A DNA stretch of 64,000 nucleotides from Pirellulales bacterium. Its GTDB lineage: Bacteria; Planctomycetota; Planctomycetia; Pirellulales; Thermoguttaceae. Position numbers and translations under genes: made by a program. The stretch lies in assembly GCA_016935315.1 (NCBI GenBank), contig JAFGRD010000022.1, positions 1 to 64,000 of the forward strand, read 5' to 3'. Shown piece by piece: positions 1,762 through 63,138 of this stretch. Numbering within the stretch: the stretch's first letter is position 1; every line of letters begins with the position of its first letter. The notes beneath the pieces are model-generated. The model worked only from the letters and a program-made list of their open reading frames with translations, was not told the origin of the DNA and searched no databases.

Positions 1762-1861
1762 TGGCGGAAGTGCATGGGAATCGAACCCACCAGCGACACG
1801 CATCACGCGCCGCCCAACGGTTTTGAAGACCGCGCCCACCACCAGGTGTGGAAGCACTTCC
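1762..1861 (-). tRNA. selC: selenocysteine tRNA (anticodon UCA), CCA encoded
   Basis: Read on the minus strand the gene begins GGAAGTGC and ends GCACTTCC-G-CCA, an 8-bp acceptor stem, longer than in ordinary tRNAs. The anticodon arm is GCGGT-CTTCAAA-ACCGT with UCA at 1824-1826, which reads UGA. A long variable arm follows, a stem of about 8 bp (GCGGCGCG with CGTGTCGC, two wobbles) closed by TGAT. The T arm is GTGGG-TTCGATT-CCCAT. The 8+5 acceptor/T architecture, long variable arm and UCA anticodon are diagnostic of bacterial tRNA-Sec. The organism therefore probably decodes some UGA codons as selenocysteine, but no selA, selB or selD and no obvious selenoprotein lies in this window. Confidence 0.93.
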
Positions 1862-29742: not shown

Positions 29743-30825
29743 TCAAGCGTTCCGCCGCGCTGGTCGCCGGCGGACCCAAAACGCCAGCATCGCCGCGCCG
29801 GCGACCAGGAGGGTGAGCGTGGTCGGCTCGGGTATCGGCGAAACATGGCCGGCGTGCATGACCAGCAGCCGATAGCCGTCCGTGCCGCCGTCGGATTCCT
29901 GGTTGAGGATGCCCGTCACGTTGAACCAGCCGGCAGGGGCCGGACAGCTCTGGAAACTCTCGTCCCGACCCAAATGAACCTCCAGTGTTCGACCGGTATC
30001 GTCCGTCACGGTCAGGTCAGCGTCGGCGCTCCAACCGCTGTCGTCCGTCAGCCTGACGTTCTGGATCTCCACCAACGTCGCCTGGTACCGTTCCCCGCCG
30101 GTGGCCCGAGTGGGATCGAACAGCGCCACGTCGGCAGCGTCCTTGAGGGCGCTGAGGGCAATCTCTTCGGGCGTGGGCAGCCCGTAGCCCTGCTGCAGTA
30201 TCTCAATCTCGAAATCCCAACCGGAATTCCTGTTGTGCTGCTCGTTCACATTCATCTTGCCCCCGTAGTACAACCCGGCCCAAGCACGGATCTCCACCAA
30301 ATCGCCGGCGCGAACCAACGGCACTACGGCGCTTTCTTCCCGCCAAAGGTGTAGCCGGTCCAGTTCGGCGTACCATTCCGCGTCGGTGTAGCTATAGATC
30401 GCATCCTGGTGAATCACGTGGTTGCCGTAGTTCTGGCCCATCCAGCAGGCGGTGCCGCCGAAGTCGCCGTCGTCCCAGGTGTCGCCGGGCAGATCGACGG
30501 CCTGGACGAAGATCTCCGCCTGCCCTCCCAACTGCCACAGGTGAACCTCCGGGCCCGGGTCGTAGTCGGCCGTGGGGTCCAGCCAGTCCTCGTTGTCGTT
30601 GAGCACGACGCCTCGCAGTCGCAGCGGGAATCCGGCCGTGTAGGCGCTGCGTACGACCGCTTCCTCGACTCTGACGGCCTGGAAGTCGCTGTGCGGGAGG
30701 AAGTCCACCTCGTTCCAGTTCTGGGCATGGGCCGACAGCGCGACCGTGGCACAGAAGACAACCGCCGCGCTGCCCCGAAGAAGCAGACACCAAGACAGCC
30801 TGGCAAACTCTGGTGAAGCACTCAT
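29743..30825 (-). CDS. PEP-CTERM sorted extracellular protein
   Basis: A 360-residue secreted protein with an N-terminal signal (hydrophobic AAVVFCATVALSAHA, cut near AQN) and a C-terminal sorting signal: IPEPTTLTLLVAGAAMLAFW followed by a basic RRRPAR tail. PEP-CTERM tails are recognised by exosortase, which is not encoded in this window. The body is rich in Asp, Trp and Tyr and carries beta-strand-rich stretches typical of secreted surface proteins; no catalytic motif is seen. ATG 30825 has AAAGG upstream; an in-frame ATG at 30888 lacks a signal-like start. It heads a two-gene unit with the DUF1559 gene. A perfect 11-bp inverted repeat lies about 100 bases upstream of its start codon. Confidence 0.82.
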   Translation of the reverse strand: MSASPEFARLSWCLLLRGSAAVVFCATVALSAHAQNWNEVDFLPHSDFQAVRVEEAVVRSAYTAGFPLRLRGVVLNDNEDWLDPTADYDPGPEVHLWQLGGQAEIFVQAVDLPGDTWDDGDFGGTACWMGQNYGNHVIHQDAIYSYTDAEWYAELDRLHLWREESAVVPLVRAGDLVEIRAWAGLYYGGKMNVNEQHNRNSGWDFEIEILQQGYGLPTPEEIALSALKDAADVALFDPTRATGGERYQATLVEIQNVRLTDDSGWSADADLTVTDDTGRTLEVHLGRDESFQSCPAPAGWFNVTGILNQESDGGTDGYRLLVMHAGHVSPIPEPTTLTLLVAGAAMLAFWVRRRPARRNA

Positions 30826-30926
30826 GTCGGAGACCTTTCTGGCCGGTGGAACATGGGGTGAAGGATTCATGTGCGGTCCGTTGCGCAACGATGTTGCGAG
30901 GGCGTGGCAATGGGCGCCCGACGCAA

Positions 30927-30951
30927 TATTACGTATTACGAATACGTAATA
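30927..30951. repeat. perfect 11-bp inverted repeat with 3-base spacer
   Basis: TATTACGTATT-ACG-AATACGTAATA, an AT-rich perfect palindrome in a GC-rich background. It lies 102 bases upstream of the PEP-CTERM start codon, inside the divergent intergenic region. Its shape fits a dimeric repressor or activator operator or a small hairpin; no regulator can be named. Confidence 0.7.
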
Positions 30952-31385
30952 CGGATGATTCTACAGGATGCGTCCGCAATTGCAAGCGTTTCTGGACGGG
31001 AATCTCGGCGTCTGAGCGGTCGCTGTCCGAGAGGGCGTGTCAGGAGAGGGCATGTCAGACCGTGCGGCAAATCGCCTGCCCGGGTGAATGATCAGCTCGC
31101 CTGGAGTATTCGTCGAAGCGACCGACGTGCAGCATGATGGGGGCACTGGAGATGTGTCAATACCCGCCGTTGGAATGGATGTGCTTCTGGCGGAGGGTCG
31201 TTTGTCGAGGATACGCACCGGCCATCGCGGCAAAAATGCCTAGTGGCGCGTCATGGAATGCGTGCGCACTAGGCACGATGAGTCGTTTTCGAGTCATTTG
31301 TCCCGAATTGTTTTCTCCGCTTCAATCGCTAACCCGTTTGTCGACAGCCACCTGCGAGCGCAGCCCGTGCTGAGGCTCCACACGT

Positions 31386-52833: not shown

Positions 52834-53122
52834 CGGGTGGCCGCGGAAGCGTCAGGCACGCGGCGAAGCTGGAACAGCCACGGAGCGTAGCTTCTGCGAA
52901 GTCCGTGGCTCGCCCAGGCAAGCCATCTGCACGATCTTTTCTCGGCGGTGGTTTCAAACGAATCTCCCCCAGTTTTCCGGGGGCGCGGGGGCAGCTCTGC
53001 AATGGTGGGCCGGATTCGATCTTTTCTGGCTTTTCAGGCAATCGGGTGCCGATATGTGGTTGACAAGGCCCGATCCTGTTCGACGCATGCAACAACGGAA
53101 GCGACGAATCCTGAACTGCAAA

Positions 53123-54037
53123 ATGCGATTCTCTCTGCCCACACTTCTTGTCTGTTGCTCGGTGCTTGCCGGCTGCGGAACCACGAAATGGACAGACACC
53201 CGGCGGACCGCGACCGAGCAATTGCTGATCTCCGATGCGATGGATCGCGCGGTCAGCCGGCTCGACTTCCGAGCGGTCGCAGGGAAGACCGTCTACCTCG
53301 ATTCCTCACCGTTATCGGGAGTCACCGATTCAACGTACTTGATCAGCGTGCTCAGACAGCACATGCTGGCCTCCGGTTGCATCCTGAAAGACGCGCGCAC
53401 CGAGGCGGATTACGTGGTCGAGGTCCGTGCCGGGGCAGTCGGCACCGACCGCCGTGACGTGCTATTCGGAATGCCGCAGACCCAGATCACCGGGATGCTG
53501 CCCATCAGCGGCGTGCCCGCCAGCATTCCGGAGATGCCCCTGGCCACCAAGACGGAACAGCGGGCCGTGGCCAAGATTGCCCTGTTTGCCTATAACCGCA
53601 AGACGGGTCGTCCGGTGTGGCAATCGGGAGGTGCGTCGGTGGAAAGCAGGGCGAAGAACGTATTTGTTCTCGGGGCAGGGCCGTTCGAGAGCGGCACGAT
53701 CTACGACGGCATGAAATTCGTCGGTAAGAAGATCGAGATTCCCCTGATTTCGCCTGGCGAAAAGCGTAACAGACTCGGGCTGGTATCGGTTGCCGACGAA
53801 GCGTATTTCACGGAACCGGAAAAGCAGCTTCTCGAACAGGGACTGATTGCCAAGAAGAAAGAGGCACCCTCTGCGGAAGGTCGAAGTTCGGCCTCGGCGT
53901 CCGAATCGGCGTCATCAAGCGGTGTGATACCGGCCAGCCACACAGCCCCTGCTGGCCCCGCTACGCCTTCAAACCTCCCACAGAACAGTCCGGAATCACC
54001 GAAAGCAGCGCCGGCGCCGGCATCCGCCGAGCCATAA
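53123..54037 (+). CDS. DUF6655-like lipoprotein
   Basis: A 304-residue lipoprotein: the signal peptide ends in LAGC (Cys18), so it should be membrane-anchored in the periplasm or outer envelope. The next block, GTTKWTDTRRTATEQLLISDA, matches a planctomycete family (DUF6655) as I recall it. The body shows alternating beta strands, and the last 70 residues are Ala-, Ser- and Pro-rich low complexity. Start is ATG 53123; the frame upstream to 53054 is probably spurious. About 290 bases separate it from the dihaem gene, same strand. Function is unknown. Confidence 0.72.
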   Translation: MRFSLPTLLVCCSVLAGCGTTKWTDTRRTATEQLLISDAMDRAVSRLDFRAVAGKTVYLDSSPLSGVTDSTYLISVLRQHMLASGCILKDARTEADYVVEVRAGAVGTDRRDVLFGMPQTQITGMLPISGVPASIPEMPLATKTEQRAVAKIALFAYNRKTGRPVWQSGGASVESRAKNVFVLGAGPFESGTIYDGMKFVGKKIEIPLISPGEKRNRLGLVSVADEAYFTEPEKQLLEQGLIAKKKEAPSAEGRSSASASESASSSGVIPASHTAPAGPATPSNLPQNSPESPKAAPAPASAEP

Positions 54038-54236: not shown

Positions 54237-54494
54237 ATGGTCCCCCACCAACAGATTCGTGACTTCCTGGCAGAGAACTTCTTGCTCAGCGACGACGGCT
54301 TCCACCTGGACGACAACGCCTCGCTGCTGGAAGAGGGCGTCGTCGATTCGACCGGCGTGCTGGAGTTGATCCAGTTCGTTGAGGAAACGTTCGGACTCGA
54401 GGTGGCCGACGAGGAAATCGTGCCGGACAACTTCGATTCGGTCAATCGGATCGCGTCTTTTGTGGGAAGCAAGACGGGATGCCCGGCAACCTGA
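54237..54494 (+). CDS. acyl carrier protein
   Basis: An 85-residue carrier protein. The phosphopantetheine-attachment serine is Ser38 in GVVDSTGVLELIQF, matching the DSxxxxxL carrier pattern. The following helix (VEETFGLEVADEEI) is typical. It differs from housekeeping AcpP (DSLDTVEL) and so is probably a specialised carrier. GGGAGAG 9 bases before ATG 54237 is a strong ribosome-binding site. It heads a four-gene plus-strand group with an AMP ligase 35 bases downstream, an asparagine synthase and an NAD-synthase-like protein. Confidence 0.9.
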   Translation: MVPHQQIRDFLAENFLLSDDGFHLDDNASLLEEGVVDSTGVLELIQFVEETFGLEVADEEIVPDNFDSVNRIASFVGSKTGCPAT

Positions 54495-54529
54495 AGTGAC
54501 CGCCATCTCACGGCGCCGGAGTCTCCACG

Positions 54530-56065
54530 ATGCGACTGGTTCACGATTCCTTACAGCAAAGCGCCCAGCGCACGCCGGACAAGATCGCGCTGGTCTGCGA
54601 TGGTCGACGCCTGACCTACGCCCAGATCGACACGATGGCCAACCAGTTGGCCAATGCGCTGCGAGACCACGGCGTAGCGCGAGGCGATCGGGTGGCGTTG
54701 TATTTGCCCAACACCATCGAGTTGGTGGTGGCCATCTTTGCCACGCTCAAGGCGGACGGCGTGTTTGTCGTCGTCAACAGCACGACGAAGGCGGATAAGC
54801 TGGCCCACGTGATCGGCAACTGCCGGGCCACGGCGATGGTAACCGGCGCTCGACAGGCAGATCTCGCCCTGGAGATGATCCGAGACCTCCCTTCGCTGGA
54901 GTTCGCCGTGCTCAGCGGCCGCACGTCGACCGAGGCGGCAGGAGACCATGCCGAGTTGGTTGCCTTCGACGCAATCCTGGAGGAATACTCGACATCTCGA
55001 CCGGACCGGCGATGCATCGACCAGGACCTGGCCTGCCTGATCTACACGTCGGGTAGCAGCGGCGACCCCAAAGGCGTGATGTCGGCACACTGCAACGTCG
55101 TGTTCGCGGCGTCATCGATCATCAGCTATCTCAAGAACCAACCGGACGACATCGTCATTTGTGCGTTGCCGCTTTCGTTCGACTACGGTTTGTATCAACT
55201 GCTGATGACGTTCCAGTTCGGCGGCACGTTGGTGCTGGAGCGGTCGTTCGCCTATCCGGCCCAGTTCCTCCAGCAGATGGAAACGGAGCGGGTGACCGGC
55301 TTTCCGGGTGTGCCCACGATCTTTGCCATCCTGCTGCAAATGGATCTCAGCAGCTACGACCTGAGTCGATTGCGGTATATTACCAACACGGCGGCCGCGT
55401 TGCCGCCCAGCCATATTCAGCAACTCCGAGGTCTGTTTCCCTCGGCCACCGTCTACTCGATGTACGGCCTGACGGAAACGAAACGGACGCTTTACCTGCC
55501 GCCCGATCAGTTGGATGCGCGCCCGGGCTCCGTGGGCATCGCCATTCCCGGCACCGAGGTCTGGCTGGTCGACGAAAACGACAATCGTCTGGGACCGAAC
55601 GAGGTGGGCGAGCTGGTCATCCGTGGCGGACACGTCATGCGCGGCTATTGGGAAAACCCCGAGGCAACCGCCGAGCGCTATCGGCCCGGGCCAATCCCCG
55701 GTGAGCGGGTGTGCTACAGCGGCGATCTTCTCCGCATGGACGAAGCAGGCTACTTCTACTTCGTCGGACGCAAAGACGACATCATCAAGAGCCGTGGCGA
55801 AAAGGTCGCGCCGAAGGAAGTGGAAAACGTGCTTTACGCCTTGCCGGGCGTCGTTGAAGCCGCCGTGATCGGGGTGCCCGACGCGATCCTCGGCCAGGCC
55901 ATCAAGGCTCTGATCGTCACCGGTAACGGCGAGCTGACGGAGAAACACGTGTGGCGCCACTGCCGCGAGAATCTGGAAGATTTCATGGTCCCGAAATACG
56001 TCGAGTTCGTCGTGTCGCTCCCGAAGACCACCAGCGGAAAGATCCGCAAGACGGCGCTCGCGTAA
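54530..56065 (+). CDS. AMP-forming acyl ligase of the ACP cassette
   Basis: A 511-residue adenylate-forming enzyme that activates a carboxylic acid and transfers it to CoA or, here probably, to the carrier protein encoded just upstream. Signatures: P-loop YTSGSSGDPKGV (about 171-182), MYGLTETKRTL (A5), GYFYFVGRKDDIIKSRGEKVAPKEVE (hinge and A8) and the catalytic Lys in TTSGKIRKTAL at the C-terminus. The enzyme begins MRLVHDSLQQSAQRTPDK, like PEP-CTERM/exosortase-associated acyl-CoA ligases, as I recall. The carboxylate substrate cannot be read from the sequence. Confidence 0.88.
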   Translation: MRLVHDSLQQSAQRTPDKIALVCDGRRLTYAQIDTMANQLANALRDHGVARGDRVALYLPNTIELVVAIFATLKADGVFVVVNSTTKADKLAHVIGNCRATAMVTGARQADLALEMIRDLPSLEFAVLSGRTSTEAAGDHAELVAFDAILEEYSTSRPDRRCIDQDLACLIYTSGSSGDPKGVMSAHCNVVFAASSIISYLKNQPDDIVICALPLSFDYGLYQLLMTFQFGGTLVLERSFAYPAQFLQQMETERVTGFPGVPTIFAILLQMDLSSYDLSRLRYITNTAAALPPSHIQQLRGLFPSATVYSMYGLTETKRTLYLPPDQLDARPGSVGIAIPGTEVWLVDENDNRLGPNEVGELVIRGGHVMRGYWENPEATAERYRPGPIPGERVCYSGDLLRMDEAGYFYFVGRKDDIIKSRGEKVAPKEVENVLYALPGVVEAAVIGVPDAILGQAIKALIVTGNGELTEKHVWRHCRENLEDFMVPKYVEFVVSLPKTTSGKIRKTALA

Positions 56066-56161
56066 CGGGCGTTCGGCCGCTTCTGCAGCCCCTCGGTGGG
56101 TCTGACTTGACTTCTGGGAGAGGGCTGCCAGGCCGGATCAGACCGGAAGGACGGCAAGAGG

Positions 56162-58243
56162 ATGTGTGGTATCGTTGGAGCGTTGAATCGCCGGGAGGAC
56201 GCGTCGATCGACGAGACGCTCGTCCGGCGGATGCTGGCCGCCGTCCGGCATCGGGGTCCGGACGAGTTCGGCGTCTATACGTACCGCGGCGACGGCTGCA
56301 CGCTTGGCCTGGGCAACGCGCGGCTGAGCATCATCGACCTTGGCGGCGGGCAACAGCCGATCGGCAACGAGGACGGGACCCGCTGGATCGTCTTCAACGG
56401 AGAAATCTACAACTATCTGGAACTCCGCGAGGAGTTGCAGGCCCAGGGGCATCGCTTCGCGACCAACTCGGATACGGAAGTTCTGTTGCACCTCTACGAG
56501 CAATACGGCCCCGATTGCCTGAACCGGCTGAACGGCCAGTTTGCCTTCGCCGTCTGGGACCAGCGGACCGAAGATCTGTTCCTTGCCCGCGATCGCGTGG
56601 GAATCCGCCCGCTGTATTACACACAGCGAGCCGGCACCCTTGTCTTCGCTTCGGAGATCAAAGCGATTCTCGCCCATCCGCAGGTTTCGGTCGAGTTCGA
56701 CCCGGTCGCCCTGGACCAGATCTTCACGCATTGGAGCCCCCTCTCGCCGCGCACGGCGTTTCGCGGAGTCCAGACACTGCCGCCGGGACATTGGCTGCTG
56801 GCCAAGCCGTCTGGCGACGTCCACGTGAAGCGCTACTGGCAGCTCACGTTTCCCGATGCCGGCAGCGAACCCGTTCGCAACGTCGAGGAGGCCGCCGGCC
56901 AATTCCGCGAGTTGCTGGTCGACGCGACGCGATTCCGACTGCGAGCCGACGTTCCCGTCGGTGCCTATCTCAGCGGCGGCTTAGACTCCTCGACGATCAC
57001 GGCGTTGATCCACCACTACACGGGCAATCGCCTGGAGACCTTCTCGATCGCCTTCACCGACGCGGCCTTCGACGAGAGCGACTTCCAGCGGCAGATGGCC
57101 CGACACCTGGGAACTCGGCACCATCTGATCACTTGCTCCCATGCCGACATCGGTCGTGTCTTCCCCGAGATGATCTGGCACACGGAGACGCCGATCATGC
57201 GGGCATCGCCGGCGCCACTCTATTTGCTCTCGGAGCTCGTGCGGAAGCACCGCTTCAAGGTGGTGCTGACCGGCGAGGGGGCCGATGAGTTTCTGGCCGG
57301 ATATAACATCTTCAAGGAAGGCAAGGTCCGGCGATTCTGGGCCCGCCAGCCCCAGTCGACCGGCCGACCGGCACTCTTGCAGAAGCTCTATCCCTACGTG
57401 GGCGATCTGCCCGGCGGCAACAGCGCCTATTGGCAGAAGTTCTTCGGCCAGCGCCTCAGCGACACGTCCAGCCCGACCTACTCGCACGACGTTCGTTGGC
57501 GCAACGCCCGCCGAACCCAGCGTCTGTTTTCGGAATCGCTGCGCCGGGCCGTGGAAACCGCCCGGCGCGAAGCTGCCTGTTGCGACGGGCCGGCGACCGA
57601 AGAACAGATCGAACTGGCACTGCCCGAGGGTTTCAGTCGCTGGAGCCCCTTGGCCCGAGCCCAGTACCTGGAAGCCACGATCTTCCTTTCGGAGTACCTG
57701 CTCTCGTCGCAGGGAGATCGCGTGGGGATGGCGCATTCGGTGGAAGGGCGATTTCCGTTTCTGGACCACCGGGTGATCGAGTTTTGCAGCTTGATGGCGC
57801 CGCGGCTGAAGCTCTGTGGGTTGAATGAGAAGCACCTCCTGAAAAAGGCCGTGCAGGACCTGTTGCCCGAGGTCGTCTGGCGCCGCCCGAAGCGACCGTA
57901 CCGTGCCCCGATCCACGCCAGTTTCTTCTGCGACGGCCGACCGCTTCCGTGGGTCGCCGAAGTCCTGCGGCCGGACGCCCTGGAAGCCGCCGGGTGCTTC
58001 AACCCCCGGGCAGTGGCGATGTTGACCAAGAAGATCCAGCGTTTCGGAACGCTCAGCGAGACGGACGACATGGCCCTGGCAGGCGTTCTGTCCACGCAAA
58101 TCGTCCACCAGCGTTTTGTGGCCGACTATCGTGCCGCCGCGCCTTTGAACGACTGCGACAACGTGAAAACCGTGGCCAGGAATCAGAGTGGGCCCGGAGC
58201 GTCCGTTGGCGCGCAGTCCCTGGAGTCGGGCAGTCGCACGTGA
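56162..58243 (+). CDS. asnB: asparagine synthase-like glutamine amidotransferase
   Basis: A 693-residue AsnB-family amidotransferase. The N-terminal glutaminase starts MCGIVGALN with nucleophile Cys2 (after Met removal). The ATP-pyrophosphatase half carries SGGLDSS (271-277) and the acidic ATP-binding segments LTGEGADEFLAGYN. AsnB homologues amidate aspartate, but many such enzymes in gene clusters make other amides, for example in exopolysaccharide or antibiotic pathways; the exosortase-associated amidotransferase-1 group has this length. It lies between the ligase and the NadE-like gene, spaced 96 and 41 bases, so it is probably in one transcript with them. The last 40 residues are variable. 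Confidence 0.88.
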   Translation: MCGIVGALNRREDASIDETLVRRMLAAVRHRGPDEFGVYTYRGDGCTLGLGNARLSIIDLGGGQQPIGNEDGTRWIVFNGEIYNYLELREELQAQGHRFATNSDTEVLLHLYEQYGPDCLNRLNGQFAFAVWDQRTEDLFLARDRVGIRPLYYTQRAGTLVFASEIKAILAHPQVSVEFDPVALDQIFTHWSPLSPRTAFRGVQTLPPGHWLLAKPSGDVHVKRYWQLTFPDAGSEPVRNVEEAAGQFRELLVDATRFRLRADVPVGAYLSGGLDSSTITALIHHYTGNRLETFSIAFTDAAFDESDFQRQMARHLGTRHHLITCSHADIGRVFPEMIWHTETPIMRASPAPLYLLSELVRKHRFKVVLTGEGADEFLAGYNIFKEGKVRRFWARQPQSTGRPALLQKLYPYVGDLPGGNSAYWQKFFGQRLSDTSSPTYSHDVRWRNARRTQRLFSESLRRAVETARREAACCDGPATEEQIELALPEGFSRWSPLARAQYLEATIFLSEYLLSSQGDRVGMAHSVEGRFPFLDHRVIEFCSLMAPRLKLCGLNEKHLLKKAVQDLLPEVVWRRPKRPYRAPIHASFFCDGRPLPWVAEVLRPDALEAAGCFNPRAVAMLTKKIQRFGTLSETDDMALAGVLSTQIVHQRFVADYRAAAPLNDCDNVKTVARNQSGPGASVGAQSLESGSRT

Positions 58244-58284
58244 TTGTCCGTCGTTGCTTTCCATCCACGCGTGAGGAACCACAA

Positions 58285-59283
58285 ATGACCCCATTTCACC
58301 GCACCGTCCTGAAACTCGATCTGGAGGCCGAAACCAGTCGCATCGTCGAGCAGCTTCATCACGACGTCCTCAAAGTGCTCAAACGAGACGGCGGCGTGCT
58401 GGGCGTCAGCGGGGGCATCGATTCGGCCGTCGTGCTGGCCTTGGCCGTGCGGGCCCTGGGGCCGGATCGCCTCACGGTGCTGTTGTTGCCCGAGATGGAG
58501 TCCAGTCCGGAAAGCGCCCTGCTGGGGCGACAGGTTTGCCGGCAGTTCGGCGTGACGCCGAGTGTCGAAGACGTGACCGGGCCGCTGCTCGGTTTCGGCT
58601 GCTACCGGCGTCGCGACGAAGCCGTGCGGTCGGTCTTTCCAGAGTACGACAGCACCTACAAGCTCAAAATCACCCTGCCGCCGGACTTGCTGGAAAGCGG
58701 AACGCTGAACTTTTTCAGCGTGACGATCGTCAGTCCCGAAGGCGAGGAGAAGAAGAAGCGGCTTCGCCCGGCCCAGTTTCGCCAAATCGTGGCTGCGTCG
58801 AACTTCAAGCAGCGATGCCGGGCGGCCATGCTCTACTACCATGCCGAAGTGCACAACTACGCGGTGATCGGAACGCCACCCAAGAACGAGCAGGATCTGG
58901 GGTTCTTTGTCAAGTACGGCGACAGCGCGATGGACGTCAAGCCGATTGCCCATCTCTACAAGACCCAGGTCTACCAGTTGGCCGAGCACCTCGAGATTCC
59001 CGAGGCGATCCGCACGCGGCCGCCGACCTCCGACACCTACAGCGCCGGCAGCACGCAGGAGGAGTTCTTCTTCCGACTGCCGTTCGAAGTCCTGGACCTG
59101 CTTTGGTACGCCTGGGAGCACAAGGTGGATCCCGCCCAGGCCGCCCGCGTGTTGGAACTGGACGAGGACCAGGTGCAGCGGGCCTTCGACGACTTCGCCC
59201 GAAAGAGACAGACTACCGAGTTTCTACGCACTCCGCCGTTGGGGCAAAGGGACTTGCAGACCGTCGGCGAGCACTTGCCGTGA
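58285..59283 (+). CDS. nadE: NAD synthase-like ATP-pyrophosphatase of the ACP cassette
   Basis: A 332-residue member of the ammonia-dependent NAD synthase family. The P-loop is SGGIDSA (42-48). The second ATP/NaAD-binding block IGTPPKNEQDLGFFVKYGDSAMDVKPIAHLYKTQVYQLAEHL is recognisable, as is the RPPTSDTYSAG segment. It has an insertion of about 50 residues (roughly 110-165), longer than housekeeping NadE (about 250-275 in total). Its place directly after an ACP, ligase and asparagine synthase suggests a role in making an amide or activated carboxylate other than NAD, but a genuine NAD synthase is equally possible. ATG 58285 has GAGGAA upstream. Confidence 0.82.
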   Translation: MTPFHRTVLKLDLEAETSRIVEQLHHDVLKVLKRDGGVLGVSGGIDSAVVLALAVRALGPDRLTVLLLPEMESSPESALLGRQVCRQFGVTPSVEDVTGPLLGFGCYRRRDEAVRSVFPEYDSTYKLKITLPPDLLESGTLNFFSVTIVSPEGEEKKKRLRPAQFRQIVAASNFKQRCRAAMLYYHAEVHNYAVIGTPPKNEQDLGFFVKYGDSAMDVKPIAHLYKTQVYQLAEHLEIPEAIRTRPPTSDTYSAGSTQEEFFFRLPFEVLDLLWYAWEHKVDPAQAARVLELDEDQVQRAFDDFARKRQTTEFLRTPPLGQRDLQTVGEHLP

Positions 59284-59318: not shown

Positions 59319-59762
59319 TCACTGCGGCTCCAGCAGGGCGAATCCGCTGGCAGGGTCGGGAAGCCGCCTGGCCTGGGCTCCGACAATCTCGTAGAGGATC
59401 ACCTCGCCGACCAACCAGGTGCGCACCCCCGGCCGCAGGCAACCGGTTAAGGTGTTGCCGGAGCGTCCCAAGGCGGCGTGCATGTGCAGGACCGGCTGGC
59501 CGGAGGCGTCGGGAGCCAACACGCCCACGCCGACAACTTCGTGCGCTCCGTCGACGGGCAGCAGCATCGGCTCGGGCGGCATCTGGTCCGAGCGTCGCGG
59601 TCCCACTACGACCTGGCCGTCGCCAATGCCGCCGACCATGATCGCGTGGGCCACGGCGATTTCCCGTTCCGCGGCGAATCGTTCGACACACTCCGGCATC
59701 ACGTCTCCATCTTCGAGCCGGATGACGAAGACGCGGCCTATCCGTCCTTCGGACGCTCTCAT
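59319..59762 (-). CDS. DUF296 / PPC-domain protein
   Basis: A 147-residue protein with a PPC/DUF296 domain, the small beta-barrel fold found in plant AT-hook proteins and in bacterial single-domain proteins. The match covers GRIGRVFVIRLEDGDVMPE through the AHAIMVGGIGDGQVVVGP block and HMHAALGRSGNTLTG, where the family has conserved Gly and His residues. No AT-hook is present. Bacterial members are trimeric and of unknown function; nucleic-acid or metal binding is speculative. GGAG precedes ATG 59762. It begins 13 bases after the kinase gene on the same strand, so it is likely co-transcribed with it. Confidence 0.83.
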   Translation of the reverse strand: MRASEGRIGRVFVIRLEDGDVMPECVERFAAEREIAVAHAIMVGGIGDGQVVVGPRRSDQMPPEPMLLPVDGAHEVVGVGVLAPDASGQPVLHMHAALGRSGNTLTGCLRPGVRTWLVGEVILYEIVGAQARRLPDPASGFALLEPQ

Positions 59763-59775
59763 GGCCAGCTCCGCA

Positions 59776-62700
59776 TTACTGATCCAACCCTGCGAGAATC
59801 TCTTGCGTGATTTCTTCGAGCGGCAATGCTGCGTAGTGGACGATTCGCCGCCGCTCGATCTTCAACTTGGCGATGTCGGCGTCGCTCAAAGCCTGGCCGA
59901 TCTTCTGATCGAAATCGTTGACCACGGCTCGTGTTTGGGCCTGCCCTTGTTGATACCACGTTTCCGCTTCGGGGCCGTGCGCTGCCACGGCGTCATCCAA
60001 TTTGGTCAACGATTCCACCGGGGGACGCCATGACTCGGGCACGGCGCTGACCACGAACTCGCGCAACTGGCCGATCCAATAGAAGAGCTGTTGGTGGTGT
60101 TTCGGGTAACCAGCGGTTGCCGTTTCGGGCTTGGGAACCTTGGAGACAAGCTCCAGCAGCTCGTTGACCGCGGCGGCGTAGGTCCGTTTCTCGAATCGTG
60201 CCCATGCCAGGCCCTGAATCGGTATCAACAACTCGGGGCGCTCGGCTTTGACGGCCTCGAACTGGGAAATGGCCTGTTCACGTTCCCGGGCCTTCAGCAT
60301 CAGCAGCCCGTAGAGCAGCTTGGGCTCCAGCTCTTTCCCGGCGAGCCTCTCGGCGGTGTTGGTTTCTTCGACAACGGCCTCCACATCGATACGATCTCGC
60401 CGCAGGTGGGAAGCCAGTTTGCGAATGGCCTTCCTGGCATCCTCGCTGAGGCGCGGAGGGCGGTCGTCGGGCAGGAACAGCTCGGGGGCCTGGCTGCCGT
60501 TGAGCTTGCCGGCTGTCGCCGCGATTGTCTCGTTGAGATACGCGAACAATTCGGTTGGTTCGAGGCGGTTGTCGCGATTCTTGTCGGCCCCGCCCGAGTA
60601 GCTCTCGGCCAACGACCAGGCAAACAGACCGTGCCCCTTCTCGTCGAAGCCGAGTCCCCGTTGGCCTTCCCGGCAGCTTGCCAGGGCGGTGATCGTTCGC
60701 AGCGGGGCCCGACCCGGCGGGACCTTCAGCGTGCGGATCATCTCAGCCGTCGAGGGCTGCCGGGCCAGGTCGGCGCCGTCTTCGGCGTGGCTGCAGTCCA
60801 GCAACAGGAGCTTCTCCCCGGCAACACATCCCTCGAACTGGTCGACCAACCACTGCAACGGCAGACCGGAGCTGTCGATCCGCTTCAAGTCGAAATTCGT
60901 CGGCGCCAGGTACACGGCCCCGTCGTCGCCGCGGTACGCGTGGCCGGCGAAGTAGAGGATGACCTTGGCCTCGGGGCCAATCCGCCCGAGCCGATCGGGA
61001 ATGCCTTGCTCCAATCGCACGAGGCTCTCGTTGGTCAGCAACAGCGCCTGGTTCGCCGGCACGCCATACCGCTTGATCAGCACGTCGCGGAGCAGCCGGG
61101 CGTCGGCTACCGGATACGAAAGCTTGCTGAGCGAGCGGTCTTCGTAGTCTTGAATGCCGATGAGGATCGCCCAGCGAGCGGGATCGGGCGGACGCCGGGC
61201 CGCGACCGTGATGGCTGCCGGAGTGCGAGCGCCGGGCGAGTCGTGAGTCACGTCGACCTTGTCGCCGTCGCGCAGCTCGTCCAACGTGACCGGCTCGCCG
61301 CCAAGCGTGATCTCGCACTCGGGCGGGACCAGGTAGGTGATGGTCTTGCCGCCGTCGTCCAGGATGACCTCGATCGCATCGGCGGCGTACTGCACCCTGC
61401 GAATCACCCCGGCCTCGCCAAGGACCCGATAGGCGTTCACGCGAACGACGTGCGTGTCGTGACCCAACGTTACCTGATCGCCCGGCCGCAAATCGCTCGG
61501 CTTGAGAATCCGCTCGTCGAGGAAACGCCGGTCGTTGATCGTCACTTCGCACTCGGGTCCCACCGGAAACACGCGTGTTTGCGATTCGTCGCCGTCGACG
61601 GCCACGGTCAACCGCCGGGCGGACGCGTCGAGATCGCGCAGGATGCCCTCGGTGTCTACCACGCGTCGGGCGCTGAGCTTCGTGGCCTTGCGTCCCATCT
61701 CCGTTGCCACGTGAGCCACGTCCACGTGGTCGTCCATCTGCAAGTCGGCGAGCCGGACGGGGTGCCCGTCGATTTCCTCGCTTCCGTTGAAGGCGATCTT
61801 CAAATCGCCGGGCACCGAAACGAGCAAGTCCTTGCCCTTCTGGTCGCCTTCCTCGATCGTCAGCACGAACTGCCCTTCGTCAGCCTCGACCATCTTGACC
61901 CGCCCGGCGTCGAGATCGGGGCGGGTCGCGTAGATATGGGTGACGCGCTGGCCGGCTTCGTCCAGGACGATCTTCACTTCGTCGCCGGGTTCGAGATGTC
62001 TGGCGGATTGCTCGACGTCGTTGACGAACACCTCGGCTCCCGTCAACGAGACCTCTTTCACGTGATCGTCCTCGCCGGTTCGGAACTCCAGGGTCCGCCG
62101 GCCGGTGTCGACATGGGTAATCACGCCGCGGATCGGTTCGCGGGGTCCCGCCGGCCCTCGTTCACCCCCGGAAGGCAACAGGATGGCAATGCACAGCATC
62201 AGGGAAAACGCCATGGTGAGAATGGCCACGAACCGCAGCCGTTGTTTGCGTTTGGCGGCGGCCTCTCTGGCTGCCAGCAGCTCGGGGTCTTCCTCCGGCG
62301 GCTGATCGATCGCCAGGGAGTCGGTCTTCAGGTCCCGCAGCACCTCCGGGGCCGACTGGTACCGGCGGGCCTGGTCCTTGACGATCAACTTCTGAACCAC
62401 GCGGGCCAGCTCTTCCGGGACGCCTTCGAGGACACGTTCGATTTCGGGCAGCTTGCGGTCGGGCGCCGCGTGCCACATCATCCAAGCGATTTGCCGGTCG
62501 CGCCCGAACGTGCTGAGGCCGGGAAACAGCGACTCGAACTGTGCCCCGCACATCAACTCGTAGGCCGAGAAGCCCAGCGAATAGAGGTCGCTGGCCGGGC
62601 CGACCGCGCCGAACTGGTTGGAAACCAGCTCGGGGGCCATGTACTTCGTCGTGCCCTTCAGCAAGCTCCCTTCCTCGCTGCTGGCACGGCGGGCCAGCCC

Positions 62701-63138
62701 GAAATCTCCCAACACCACCCGATTGCGTGCGTCGACCAGAATATTGGCCGGCTTCACGTCGCCGTGAATCACGCCGTTGACGTGCAGGAACTGCAGCCCG
62801 TTGAGGCATCCGGCCAACACCCTGCGCAGCAAATCGAGATCGATCGGCTCGCCCCGAGTCATGTCCTGCAGATTGCCCCGCATCAGTTCCAGAACCAGCC
62901 AGCCGCGGGAGCGGACGATATCGTAGATCGTGACGATGTTGGGGTGTTGCAGCGATGCCAGCAGTTGGGCTTCTTGCCAATAGCGTGCCAATCGCTGTTC
63001 GTCGCTGAGAAACTGTTGGTGGATCTGCTTAATGGCCACTTCCCGTCCCAGTTCGCGGTCGCGGGCGCGATAGACGGTGGCGAAGTCGCCGGTGGCTATG
63101 GTATTCACGATTTCGTAACGCGACGCGCTGGCCATCAT
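59776..63138 (-). CDS. Ser/Thr kinase - transmembrane - caspase-like - TPR fusion protein
   Basis: An 1120-residue protein. A kinase domain (about 8-270) has VAIK with Lys37, HGDVKPAN with Asp127 (HGD in place of HRD) and DFG at 145-147. One transmembrane helix (about 301-321) follows. Residues 335-645 are repeated beta-rich modules with EPGDEVKI, RPGDQVTL and RDGDKVDV turns, resembling DUF5666-like folds. Then a caspase-like peptidase (C14) domain, about 655-850, has His733 in AGHAYRGDDG and Cys782 in LLLLDCSHAEDG, an apparently intact dyad. An EF-hand-like loop DKNRDNRLEPTE (852-863) comes next, and TPR-like helices end the chain. The kinase should face the cytoplasm and the rest the periplasm. 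ATG 63138 follows AAGGAGCC. Substrates are unknown. Confidence 0.88.
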   Translation of the reverse strand: MMASASRYEIVNTIATGDFATVYRARDRELGREVAIKQIHQQFLSDEQRLARYWQEAQLLASLQHPNIVTIYDIVRSRGWLVLELMRGNLQDMTRGEPIDLDLLRRVLAGCLNGLQFLHVNGVIHGDVKPANILVDARNRVVLGDFGLARRASSEEGSLLKGTTKYMAPELVSNQFGAVGPASDLYSLGFSAYELMCGAQFESLFPGLSTFGRDRQIAWMMWHAAPDRKLPEIERVLEGVPEELARVVQKLIVKDQARRYQSAPEVLRDLKTDSLAIDQPPEEDPELLAAREAAAKRKQRLRFVAILTMAFSLMLCIAILLPSGGERGPAGPREPIRGVITHVDTGRRTLEFRTGEDDHVKEVSLTGAEVFVNDVEQSARHLEPGDEVKIVLDEAGQRVTHIYATRPDLDAGRVKMVEADEGQFVLTIEEGDQKGKDLLVSVPGDLKIAFNGSEEIDGHPVRLADLQMDDHVDVAHVATEMGRKATKLSARRVVDTEGILRDLDASARRLTVAVDGDESQTRVFPVGPECEVTINDRRFLDERILKPSDLRPGDQVTLGHDTHVVRVNAYRVLGEAGVIRRVQYAADAIEVILDDGGKTITYLVPPECEITLGGEPVTLDELRDGDKVDVTHDSPGARTPAAITVAARRPPDPARWAILIGIQDYEDRSLSKLSYPVADARLLRDVLIKRYGVPANQALLLTNESLVRLEQGIPDRLGRIGPEAKVILYFAGHAYRGDDGAVYLAPTNFDLKRIDSSGLPLQWLVDQFEGCVAGEKLLLLDCSHAEDGADLARQPSTAEMIRTLKVPPGRAPLRTITALASCREGQRGLGFDEKGHGLFAWSLAESYSGGADKNRDNRLEPTELFAYLNETIAATAGKLNGSQAPELFLPDDRPPRLSEDARKAIRKLASHLRRDRIDVEAVVEETNTAERLAGKELEPKLLYGLLMLKAREREQAISQFEAVKAERPELLIPIQGLAWARFEKRTYAAAVNELLELVSKVPKPETATAGYPKHHQQLFYWIGQLREFVVSAVPESWRPPVESLTKLDDAVAAHGPEAETWYQQGQAQTRAVVNDFDQKIGQALSDADIAKLKIERRRIVHYAALPLEEITQEILAGLDQ

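Follow-up and report, generated by a model that had tools for sequence, protein, structure and literature searches.

What is an enzyme of the NAD synthase family doing at the end of a row of genes for a carrier protein, a ligase and an amidotransferase? The question is raised by four plus-strand genes, separated by gaps of 35, 96 and 41 bases, in the window (the whole stretch of 64,000 nucleotides analysed here): a stand-alone carrier protein (ACP) of 85 aa at 54237..54494, a VinN-like adenylating ligase of 511 aa at 54530..56065, an AsnB-like glutamine-dependent amidotransferase of 693 aa at 56162..58243, and a NadE-like ATP-pyrophosphatase of the PRK00876 subfamily, of 332 aa, at 58285..59283. 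Gene coordinates bear out this layout as given in the initial annotation, and Pfam matches agree with its description of a carrier, an acyl-activating ligase, an amidotransferase and a second ATP-pyrophosphatase: PF00550 (21.8 bits against a cut-off of 20.8), PF00501 (AMP-binding; 319.9 bits), Asn_synthase with GATase_7 (304.4 and 169.1 bits), and NAD_synthase (153.4 bits, in two pieces), respectively. Upstream lies a DUF6655 protein (53054..54037, plus strand; PF20360, 190.4 bits), a native flank, and the next gene after the cassette encodes a PCC-domain protein (59319..59762, minus strand; PF03479, 69.1 bits); both are placed outside the pathway. Promoter and terminator scans of the cassette gave no excess over shuffled sequence.

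A conserved four-gene set

All four genes are found in 50 of 72 distinct NadE-like loci, counted within the stretch available for each locus (at most ~21 kb); a further 10 loci are cut by a contig end and 12 hold fewer genes, so that 50 of 62 are complete once the cut loci are excluded. Because loci L018-L068 served to build the detection profiles, only the 23 loci retrieved with the NadE family model by itself give a count free of that dependence; 15 of those 23 are complete, with six of the 15 coming from one genus. Left out were two ordinary NadE-like loci, 33-36% identical (L058, L059), a contig fragment (L017), repeats of L037 and L043 (L120, L121), and two genomes of the same genus as the six included loci (G401, G485). 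The cassette spans Chloroflexi, rhizobia and cyanobacteria, and its gene order varies (ACP-LIG-ASN-NADE, ASN-ACP-LIG-NADE, NADE-ACP-LIG-ASN or NADE-ASN-LIG-ACP) with the set itself constant; 167 of 182 neighbouring same-strand pairs of cassette genes overlap or lie no more than 100 bases apart. The NadE-like gene stands alone in L131, L133 and L140, and in L127, L134 and L060 genes are missing although no contig end could account for it. Chance linkage can be rejected on the strength of the 50 complete loci; our literature search found no description of the four-gene combination, and what had been put forward as a possible small undescribed biosynthetic set emerges as a conserved and apparently undescribed group.

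All seven annotated alphaproteobacterial plasmid loci inspected contain the four genes, that of Sinorhizobium meliloti pSymB included. Here an ACP with a DST motif adjoins a ligase 55% identical to that of the window (P0002), with asnB and nadE flanking the pair, an arrangement by which SMb20650-SMb20651 is very probably the same cassette. SMb20651 was reportedly described in 2009. SMb20650 and SMb20651 are cotranscribed, expression of SMb20650 in E. coli leads to acylated SMb20651, and the ligase does not take the place of FadD (PMC7232532); since these are probable orthologues, carrier and ligase of the cassette appear to belong together. The available text of this work and of PMC12391972, which in 2025 still termed SMb20651 an ACP/PCP ‘of unknown function’, treats the ACP and ligase without the other two genes, and neither ‘asparagine’ nor ‘NAD syn’ occurs in what is available of PMC7232532. 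Elsewhere, smb20650 is down-regulated under predation and grouped with fatty acid activation genes (PMC10315480), and SMb20651 appears in the reference list only of PMC9386255.

Probable loading of an acid onto the carrier

The carrier has its phosphopantetheine site at DSTG (S38), with D37 and S38 present in 60 of 60 rows of the family alignment and T39 in 38; its closest PDB sequence match is a peptidyl carrier protein (2my5), and it reaches just 51.4 bits against the OlsHI ornithine lipid ACP model NF052616 (cut-off 130). For the ligase, a whole-length PDB search places linear gramicidin synthase first and VinN second, and a search with the pocket region places VinN (3wv4/3wvn) on top at 77 bits, with the next protein at 42. 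VinN puts 3-methylaspartate on its carrier as a beta-amino acid (PMC11253843), and its pocket residues D230, F231, S299, K330 and R331 (PMC11253843, section 2.3) align with D218, Y219, T287, K318 and R319 of the ligase. We took as VinN-type any ligase with Asp at GrsA position 235, a bulky residue at 236 and K-R in a shortened beta13-beta14 loop; the window ligase has D218, Y219 and K318-R319, in a loop without an extra residue.

The cassette ligase shares with VinN-VinL, the (2S,3S)-3-methylaspartate ligase and carrier of the vicenistatin system, the Asp, its aromatic neighbour and the K-R pair in a short loop. VinL is a stand-alone carrier, as in the cassette, and in vicenistatin synthesis the residue is then decarboxylated by VinO. 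That pathway feeds a polyketide synthase, whereas the cassette pairs its ligase and carrier with two amidotransferases. From family and pocket, the substrate of window-type ligases is probably L-aspartate, activated through its beta-carboxyl. D218, K318 and R319 occur together in 41 of 60 aligned ligases (R319 in all 60); the VinN signature is incomplete in 19 of the 60, and in 18 of these the amino-binding Asp is missing, so aspartate cannot be the substrate in every locus.

Two probable aminating enzymes and a proposed pathway

The AsnB-like enzyme scores 526.5 bits against TIGR01536 (cut-off 267.1) and has both the Cys2 glutaminase and the SGGLDSS synthetase motif, with C2 and S271-S276 conserved across 54 aligned rows; its closest PDB sequence match is the hydroxyamidotransferase 7ylz. 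Judging by the model name, an AsnB-like enzyme likewise amidates another carboxylate in N-acetylglutaminylglutamine amide synthesis (TIGR03104), against which the cassette enzyme falls below the cut-off (373.8 versus 570.1 bits); that system is not known to have an ACP or NadE-like partner. In 11 loci the AsnB-like gene is absent without a contig end as the cause, and six of these hold a different ATP-pyrophosphatase amidotransferase: a second NadE-like gene in L047-L050, these four being closely related to each other, and a WbuX-like amidotransferase in L125 and L139. This substitution, a pattern of six loci, suggests that the cassette uses two aminating enzymes.

Synthesising these findings, we tentatively propose, at somewhat less than even confidence, that the four genes form a mobile cassette for making an acyl group that is rich in nitrogen and bound to the carrier. 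The ligase would adenylate a small acid, probably L-aspartate via its beta-carboxyl like VinN, and load it onto the stand-alone carrier; the carboxylate left free on the bound residue might then be aminated by both ATP-pyrophosphatase enzymes, the AsnB-like enzyme taking ammonia from glutamine for the first amination and the NadE-like enzyme performing a second, ATP-driven one, to give two amides, or an amide and then an amidine. At some loci a PrmC-like methyltransferase may methylate the new nitrogen, and an acyltransferase, its family varying by lineage, would finally pass the group to an amine or hydroxyl acceptor, which in part of the lineages, perhaps often, may be a surface glycan, as the gene neighbourhood hints. 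The earlier suggestion of an acid loaded onto the ACP, followed by formation of amide-type bonds, is thus probably right, if one allows that the chemistry is read from enzyme families.

Neighbouring genes, taken from a simple longest-ORF picker and hence rough, fit into this scheme to varying degrees. In 29 of 72 loci an acyltransferase-like gene of one of three clusters is found no more than two genes from the cassette, and GNAT or GNAT-like genes accompany the cassettes of Azospirillum, Shinella, Nitratireductor and M. ciceri. Families of the planctomycete and rhizobial types either score below the Pfam cut-offs or match no Pfam model, and can be called GNAT only weakly. No acyltransferase adjoins the window's copy, and a search of its own genome for genes homologous to the GNAT-like and Acyl_transf_3 neighbours, run without a positive control, found none. 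PrmC-like NPPY methyltransferases are encoded in the cassette or directly beside it at six loci, all from Chloroflexota or Calditrichota, and not far from it at two Mesorhizobium loci; two of the Chloroflexota proteins score higher than the PrmC threshold and may simply be prmC products of the ordinary kind. In S. meliloti, a GNAT-like gene and a methyltransferase gene form a pair about 10 kb from the operon. Another neighbour family (c25; L038, L051, L122-L124) yielded a low-confidence model (pLDDT 59.7, from two sequences), whose best structural matches are SGNH esterases/acyltransferases.

The linked glycosyltransferases that the initial annotation had proposed to look for do occur in some relatives, whose cassettes lie among polysaccharide genes: a member of the two largest glycosyltransferase clusters is present in at least 16 of 72 loci (Pfam on one representative of each). 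Wzy, Wzt and PMT genes are found at such loci too, two loci have a sugar-amidotransferase-like gene, and AsnB relatives, going by model names, act on varied acids. Together these observations lend a real though smaller likelihood to a division of labour: one acyl group would be loaded by the ligase and ACP, and the amidation carried out by the AsnB-like and NadE-like enzymes would be of free acids or of sugar uronates belonging to the same surface glycan. However, no glycan genes are annotated close by in the window, S. meliloti, M. ciceri or Shinella copies, and the operons are tight, their ends often overlapping.

Within the preferred carrier-bound scheme, a more specific and rather unlikely possibility is that the NadE-like enzyme is an amidine (or nitrile) synthase, adding a second ammonia to the ATP-activated carboxamide of carrier-bound aspartate. 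An amide-to-amidine step has been proposed for WbpG/WbuX-type sugar amidotransferases, relatives of which accompany the two AsnB-less loci L125 and L139.

The NadE-like enzyme and NAD synthesis

Taken on its own, TIGR00552 (146.9 bits in two pieces; cut-off 63.65) would call the fourth gene an NAD(+) synthase, and the NAD(+) synthase subfamily model for PRK00876, NF002048, gives 438.0 bits (cut-off 313). An AlphaFold2 model (pLDDT 87.6) has the NAD synthetase fold (Z 27.7 to 2e18), structure comparison yielding only the NadE fold, and the PP-loop motif is likewise shared with NadE (NH3-dependent NAD synthetase); 3fiu, titled NMN synthetase, is a NadE relative named for a different substrate. 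Unlike NadE, the cassette enzyme keeps habitual ACP, ligase and AsnB-like partners, reads STQEEFFF where the genome's housekeeping NadE reads GQTDEDELG, and carries extra residues. It has no glutaminase domain, and PF02540 positions 5-83 and 93-231 match its residues 20-99 and 161-303, a split that places ~52 additional residues within 100-160 and confirms the ~50-residue insertion noted initially; in the insert, Y107, R110, P119, K128, I129, P132, G153 and R159 are conserved in at least 90% of 77 aligned members.

The separate housekeeping nadE asked after in the initial annotation is present and intact in the window's own genome (G000:C165:51708-52424; 268.8 bits), with SGGIDSS, GTSNKSE and GQTDE, and another NadE occurs in 32 of 36 other genomes carrying the NadE-like gene, so that the idea of the latter as sole nadE is rejected. 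No other NadE was found at E 1e-10 in the remaining four (G005, G416, G014 and G104; completeness 78%, 80% and 98%, with G104 not rated). Judged by this gene content, the cell probably relies for NAD chiefly on an enzyme other than the NadE-like one. The grouping had been deemed accidental should the gene prove the only nadE and the set unconserved; neither is the case. A second ordinary NAD synthase linked by happenstance, to which the TIGR00552 score, the fold and those four genomes would point, is thus very improbable, given the separate NadE enzymes, the altered motif, the conserved insert and a linkage that persists while gene order changes. Two phage records, both of one phage, hold a distant NadE fragment, and a literature search under PRK00876 or NadE-like names yielded work on ordinary NadE.

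Exosortase genes

The cassette enzymes belong to the same superfamilies as the ligase and amidotransferase of XrtA/PEP-CTERM sets, and the NCBIfam model that scores highest with the ligase is TIGR03098, TIGR03108 coming second among those for the amidotransferase; yet both scores lie well below cut-off (489.7 versus 592.35 and 450.9 versus 816.9 bits), and the cassette has a NadE-like partner and no linked exosortase. XrtA sets are not known to include a NadE-like gene. Of the 37 genomes available with a NadE-like gene, 28 were searched for exosortase (PF09721); 13 have it, never beside the cassette, the nearest copy being ~27 kb away (G363), and the copies of the window's genome are on contigs C78, C84 and C86, the cassette being on C58. 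The initially suggested exosortase A link is accordingly rejected for the genomes searched; the PEP-CTERM protein mentioned in its support is real (29743-30960, minus strand), but lies 23 kb off, leaving that connection unsupported. Despite the model ranking and the PEP-CTERM protein, the least credible explanation is that the set is a variant form of the ligase, amidotransferase and ACP genes found with exosortase A (XrtA) in exopolysaccharide regions.

Origin and implications

The window's copy was probably acquired by transfer from Chloroflexota. The DUF6655 flank gene is matched in 41 of 60 genomes, its own included (40 of 59 relatives); no empty site without the cassette was found at the DUF6655 loci of nine relatives, and base composition does not set the cassette apart or give a sign of transfer.

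Curated models name the whole subfamily NAD(+) synthase; the evidence presented here points to enzymes that are usually found together with a carrier protein and have another role. Conservation of the cassette is observed directly, its chemistry being our interpretation, and the S. meliloti megaplasmid copy offers a tractable model in which direct testing is possible. Were the amidine reading true, bacteria from rhizobia to Chloroflexota would attach an amidino amino acid unit to glycans or build it into small molecules, with N-methylation by the PrmC-like enzyme in some cases; the reaction would be a carrier-bound counterpart of the WbpG/WbuX-type step from amide to amidine.

The cassette and its genomic setting

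The cassette comprises four plus-strand genes, encoding a carrier protein (ACP, 54237-54494), an AMP-binding ligase (54530-56065), an AsnB-like amidotransferase that includes a glutaminase domain (56162-58243) and a NadE-like protein of the NF002048/PRK00876 subfamily (58285-59283; 438.0 bits, cut-off 313), all four assigned by Pfam and NCBIfam. Gene set, families and the gaps of 35, 96 and 41 bases are as initially annotated; the insertion in the NadE-like protein, put there at about 50 residues, appears as about 52 extra residues separating two pieces of the NAD_synthase profile. With a DUF6655 gene as its 5' neighbour and an opposite-strand gene for a PCC-domain protein as its 3' neighbour, the cassette stands alone. 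Judged by its gene content, the genome may be that of a planctomycete.

Whether a housekeeping nadE exists elsewhere had been raised as a point to check: the same genome encodes an intact NadE on another contig (C165, 268.8 bits), such that the NadE-like gene is not the sole nadE. In 32 of 36 other genomes with a NadE-like gene, NAD_synthase is also matched away from that locus (E 1e-10); no second match at this threshold was found in G005, G014, G104 and G416. The suggested exosortase link is not supported; a PEP-CTERM protein with a typical tail is indeed encoded in the window (29743-30960, minus strand), but the exosortases of this genome sit on three other contigs.

Elsewhere in the window, a tRNA-Sec gene with a TCA anticodon (1762-1861, minus strand) indicates that the host organism may use selenocysteine, and a 1120-residue protein (59776-63138, minus strand) looks, by eye, like a putative Ser/Thr kinase joined to a caspase-like domain.

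Conservation of the four-gene set

When genome contigs were scanned with the NadE-like protein, 42 loci were retrieved, their best segments reaching 74% identity. Most belong to Anaerolineae and other Chloroflexota; others fall in Geothrix, Leptolyngbyaceae, Zixibacteria, Krumholzibacteriota and Calditrichota. The NF002048 subfamily is rare and scattered, as only 19 of 392 genomes of the window's own phylum (its own genome counted) and 9 of 301 in the phylum of locus L019 (the genome of L019 likewise counted) contain a member above cut-off. The control genome, that of the archaeon Methanosarcina acetivorans, has one such member.

The four-gene set is conserved across loci. Using profiles built from the first locus set (thresholds: NadE 150 bits, AsnB 300, ligase 250, ACP 50), we surveyed 72 distinct loci and found all four genes in 50, within stretches of at most about 21 kb; a further 10 run into a contig end and 12 have fewer than four genes. 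Of the 23 loci brought in by the family model alone, 15 hold full sets (six from one genus) and one is cut. Reduced sets consist of ACP, ligase and two NadE-like genes (L047-L050; three Zixibacteria, one Krumholzibacteriota), ACP, ligase and NadE-like gene (L125, L139, L060), ligase and NadE-like gene (L127), ACP, AsnB-like and NadE-like genes (L134), or the NadE-like gene by itself (L131, L133, L140). Membership is constant and gene order variable, with 167 of 182 same-strand neighbouring pairs overlapping or at most 100 bases apart.

Matches also occur in 116 plasmid records, chiefly of Sinorhizobium, Azospirillum, Ensifer, Shinella and Mesorhizobium, and all seven annotated plasmid loci inspected hold the full set: S. 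meliloti pSymB (L145), Azospirillum thermophilum (L146), Mesorhizobium sp. AR07 (L148), M. ciceri (L149), Shinella sp. HZN7 (L150), A. ramasamyi (L151) and Nitratireductor rhodophyticola (L152). The S. meliloti proteins are 45% (ACP), 55% (ligase), 51% (AsnB-like) and 48% (NadE-like) identical to those of the window, and strain 1021 has the same pSymB stretch (99.7%). Matched by DST motif, replicon and adjoining ligase gene rather than by locus tag, this ACP and ligase are very probably SMb20651 and SMb20650. Passages of PMC7232532 describe SMb20650 as cotranscribed with SMb20651, as yielding acylated SMb20651 when expressed in E. coli, and as unable to replace FadD; PMC12391972 lists SMb20651, noting its DST motif, among ACP/PCP proteins whose function is unknown.

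Origin of the window copy

In the NadE-like tree the window falls within a 15-row group whose other 14 rows are Chloroflexota (100/100), and nine loci from the window's taxonomic family belong to another group, of 24 rows (100/99); the AsnB-like (14 rows, 99) and ligase (13 rows, 96 SH-aLRT) trees are concordant. The adjoining DUF6655 gene is native to the genome, being present in 40 of 59 relatives (41 of 60 genomes with its own; best long match 66% identity across 252 residues). Because three trees agree on the Chloroflexota grouping and the neighbour is native, the cassette was probably acquired as one unit. An empty site without the cassette was looked for and not found.

Ligase pocket

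At full length, the ligase has linear gramicidin synthase as its best match among solved chains (297 bits), followed by VinN (252.7), the vicenistatin ligase that loads 3-methylaspartate on its carrier as a beta-amino acid; with the pocket region only (residues about 209-352), VinN ranks first (77 bits) and HitB second (42). Section 2.3 of PMC11253843 gives D230, F231, S299, K330 and R331, together with a shortened beta13-beta14 loop, as key to VinN; the residues aligned with these five in the window ligase are D218, Y219, T287, K318 and R319. The combination of D218, K318 and the adjoining R319 occurs in 41 of 60 ligases, R319 being invariant, and 12 of the 60 have one extra loop residue and lack Asp at 218. 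The S. meliloti ligase is of the D218/K318/R319 type and that of A. thermophilum is not. At L119 (3891-7235) the ACP of the cassette has a ligase on either side, the two differing in pocket type, and the window's own genome encodes a second TIGR03098-group ligase (G000:C80:19026-20537, 381 bits).

Two putative aminating enzymes

The AsnB-like protein retains the glutaminase Cys2 and an SGGLDSS motif, and the NadE-like protein retains SGGxDS and K-x-GD-x(3)-D; a Pfam search found no glutaminase domain in the latter. Its AlphaFold2 model (pLDDT 87.6) folds as an NAD synthetase, the match to 2e18 reaching Z 27.7, with GMP synthase and LarE next (Z about 16), and most members carry QEEF(F/Y) where the genome's own NadE has GQTDEDELG. 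The AsnB-like gene is missing, with no contig end responsible, from 11 loci: four carry a second NadE-like gene, another two encode a WbuX-like amidotransferase (at 140.2 and 114.0 bits, below the 203.2 cut-off), and in five no substitute was seen. The presence of a substitute enzyme in six of the 11 hints at a frequent need for two ATP-pyrophosphatase aminations, a lead resting on those six loci.

Accessory genes

In 29 of the 72 loci, acyltransferase-like genes of three clusters lie at most two genes from the cassette (Acyl_transf_3 in 17, a GNAT-like family in 6 and hexapeptide in 6, by Pfam on representatives). Both Azospirillum loci have GNAT genes 3' of the cassette, with 27% identity to one of the six GNAT-like cluster genes. 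Shinella, Nitratireductor and M. ciceri have, directly beside the cassette, a gene of another family (about 370 residues); S. meliloti encodes a member some 10 kb downstream of its cassette, with 62% identity to the M. ciceri protein. Pfam GNAT matches in these last two families (GNAT-like and about 370 residues) are below cut-off or absent.

A PrmC/HemK-like methyltransferase gene adjoins the cassette in L022, L027, L028, L029, L051 and Mesorhizobium sp. AR07, lies within it in L045 and is one gene off in M. ciceri. The two Mesorhizobium proteins have NPPY and are missing the PrmC model's first 46-56 positions; those of L027 and L045 exceed the PrmC cut-off and could be ordinary prmC products. 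Upstream of two Zixibacteria cassettes (L047, 7688-9932; L048, 4976-7221) are genes for a carbamoyltransferase and an SxtJ-like protein (Pfam, one member per cluster).

A proposed model

Tailoring of carrier-tethered amino acids is already known as a kind, vicenistatin being an example; no description of an ACP/ligase pair combined with two ATP-pyrophosphatase amidotransferases turned up in the literature searched, a scope that takes in few subscription journals. Beyond what is directly supported (co-conservation, families, pocket residues, intact motifs and a separate NadE), we infer a substrate, an order of steps and a transfer. The ligase would load Asp on the carrier via the beta-carboxyl of the amino acid, and the AsnB-like enzyme would aminate the free carboxylate of the carrier-bound Asp; the NadE-like enzyme would then perform a second, ATP-driven amination, with N-methylation as an optional step, before an acyltransferase moves the group off the carrier. 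From the pattern of pocket residues across the 60 ligases, an aspartate-like beta-amino acid is the expected load in most cassettes, and a different acid in the others.
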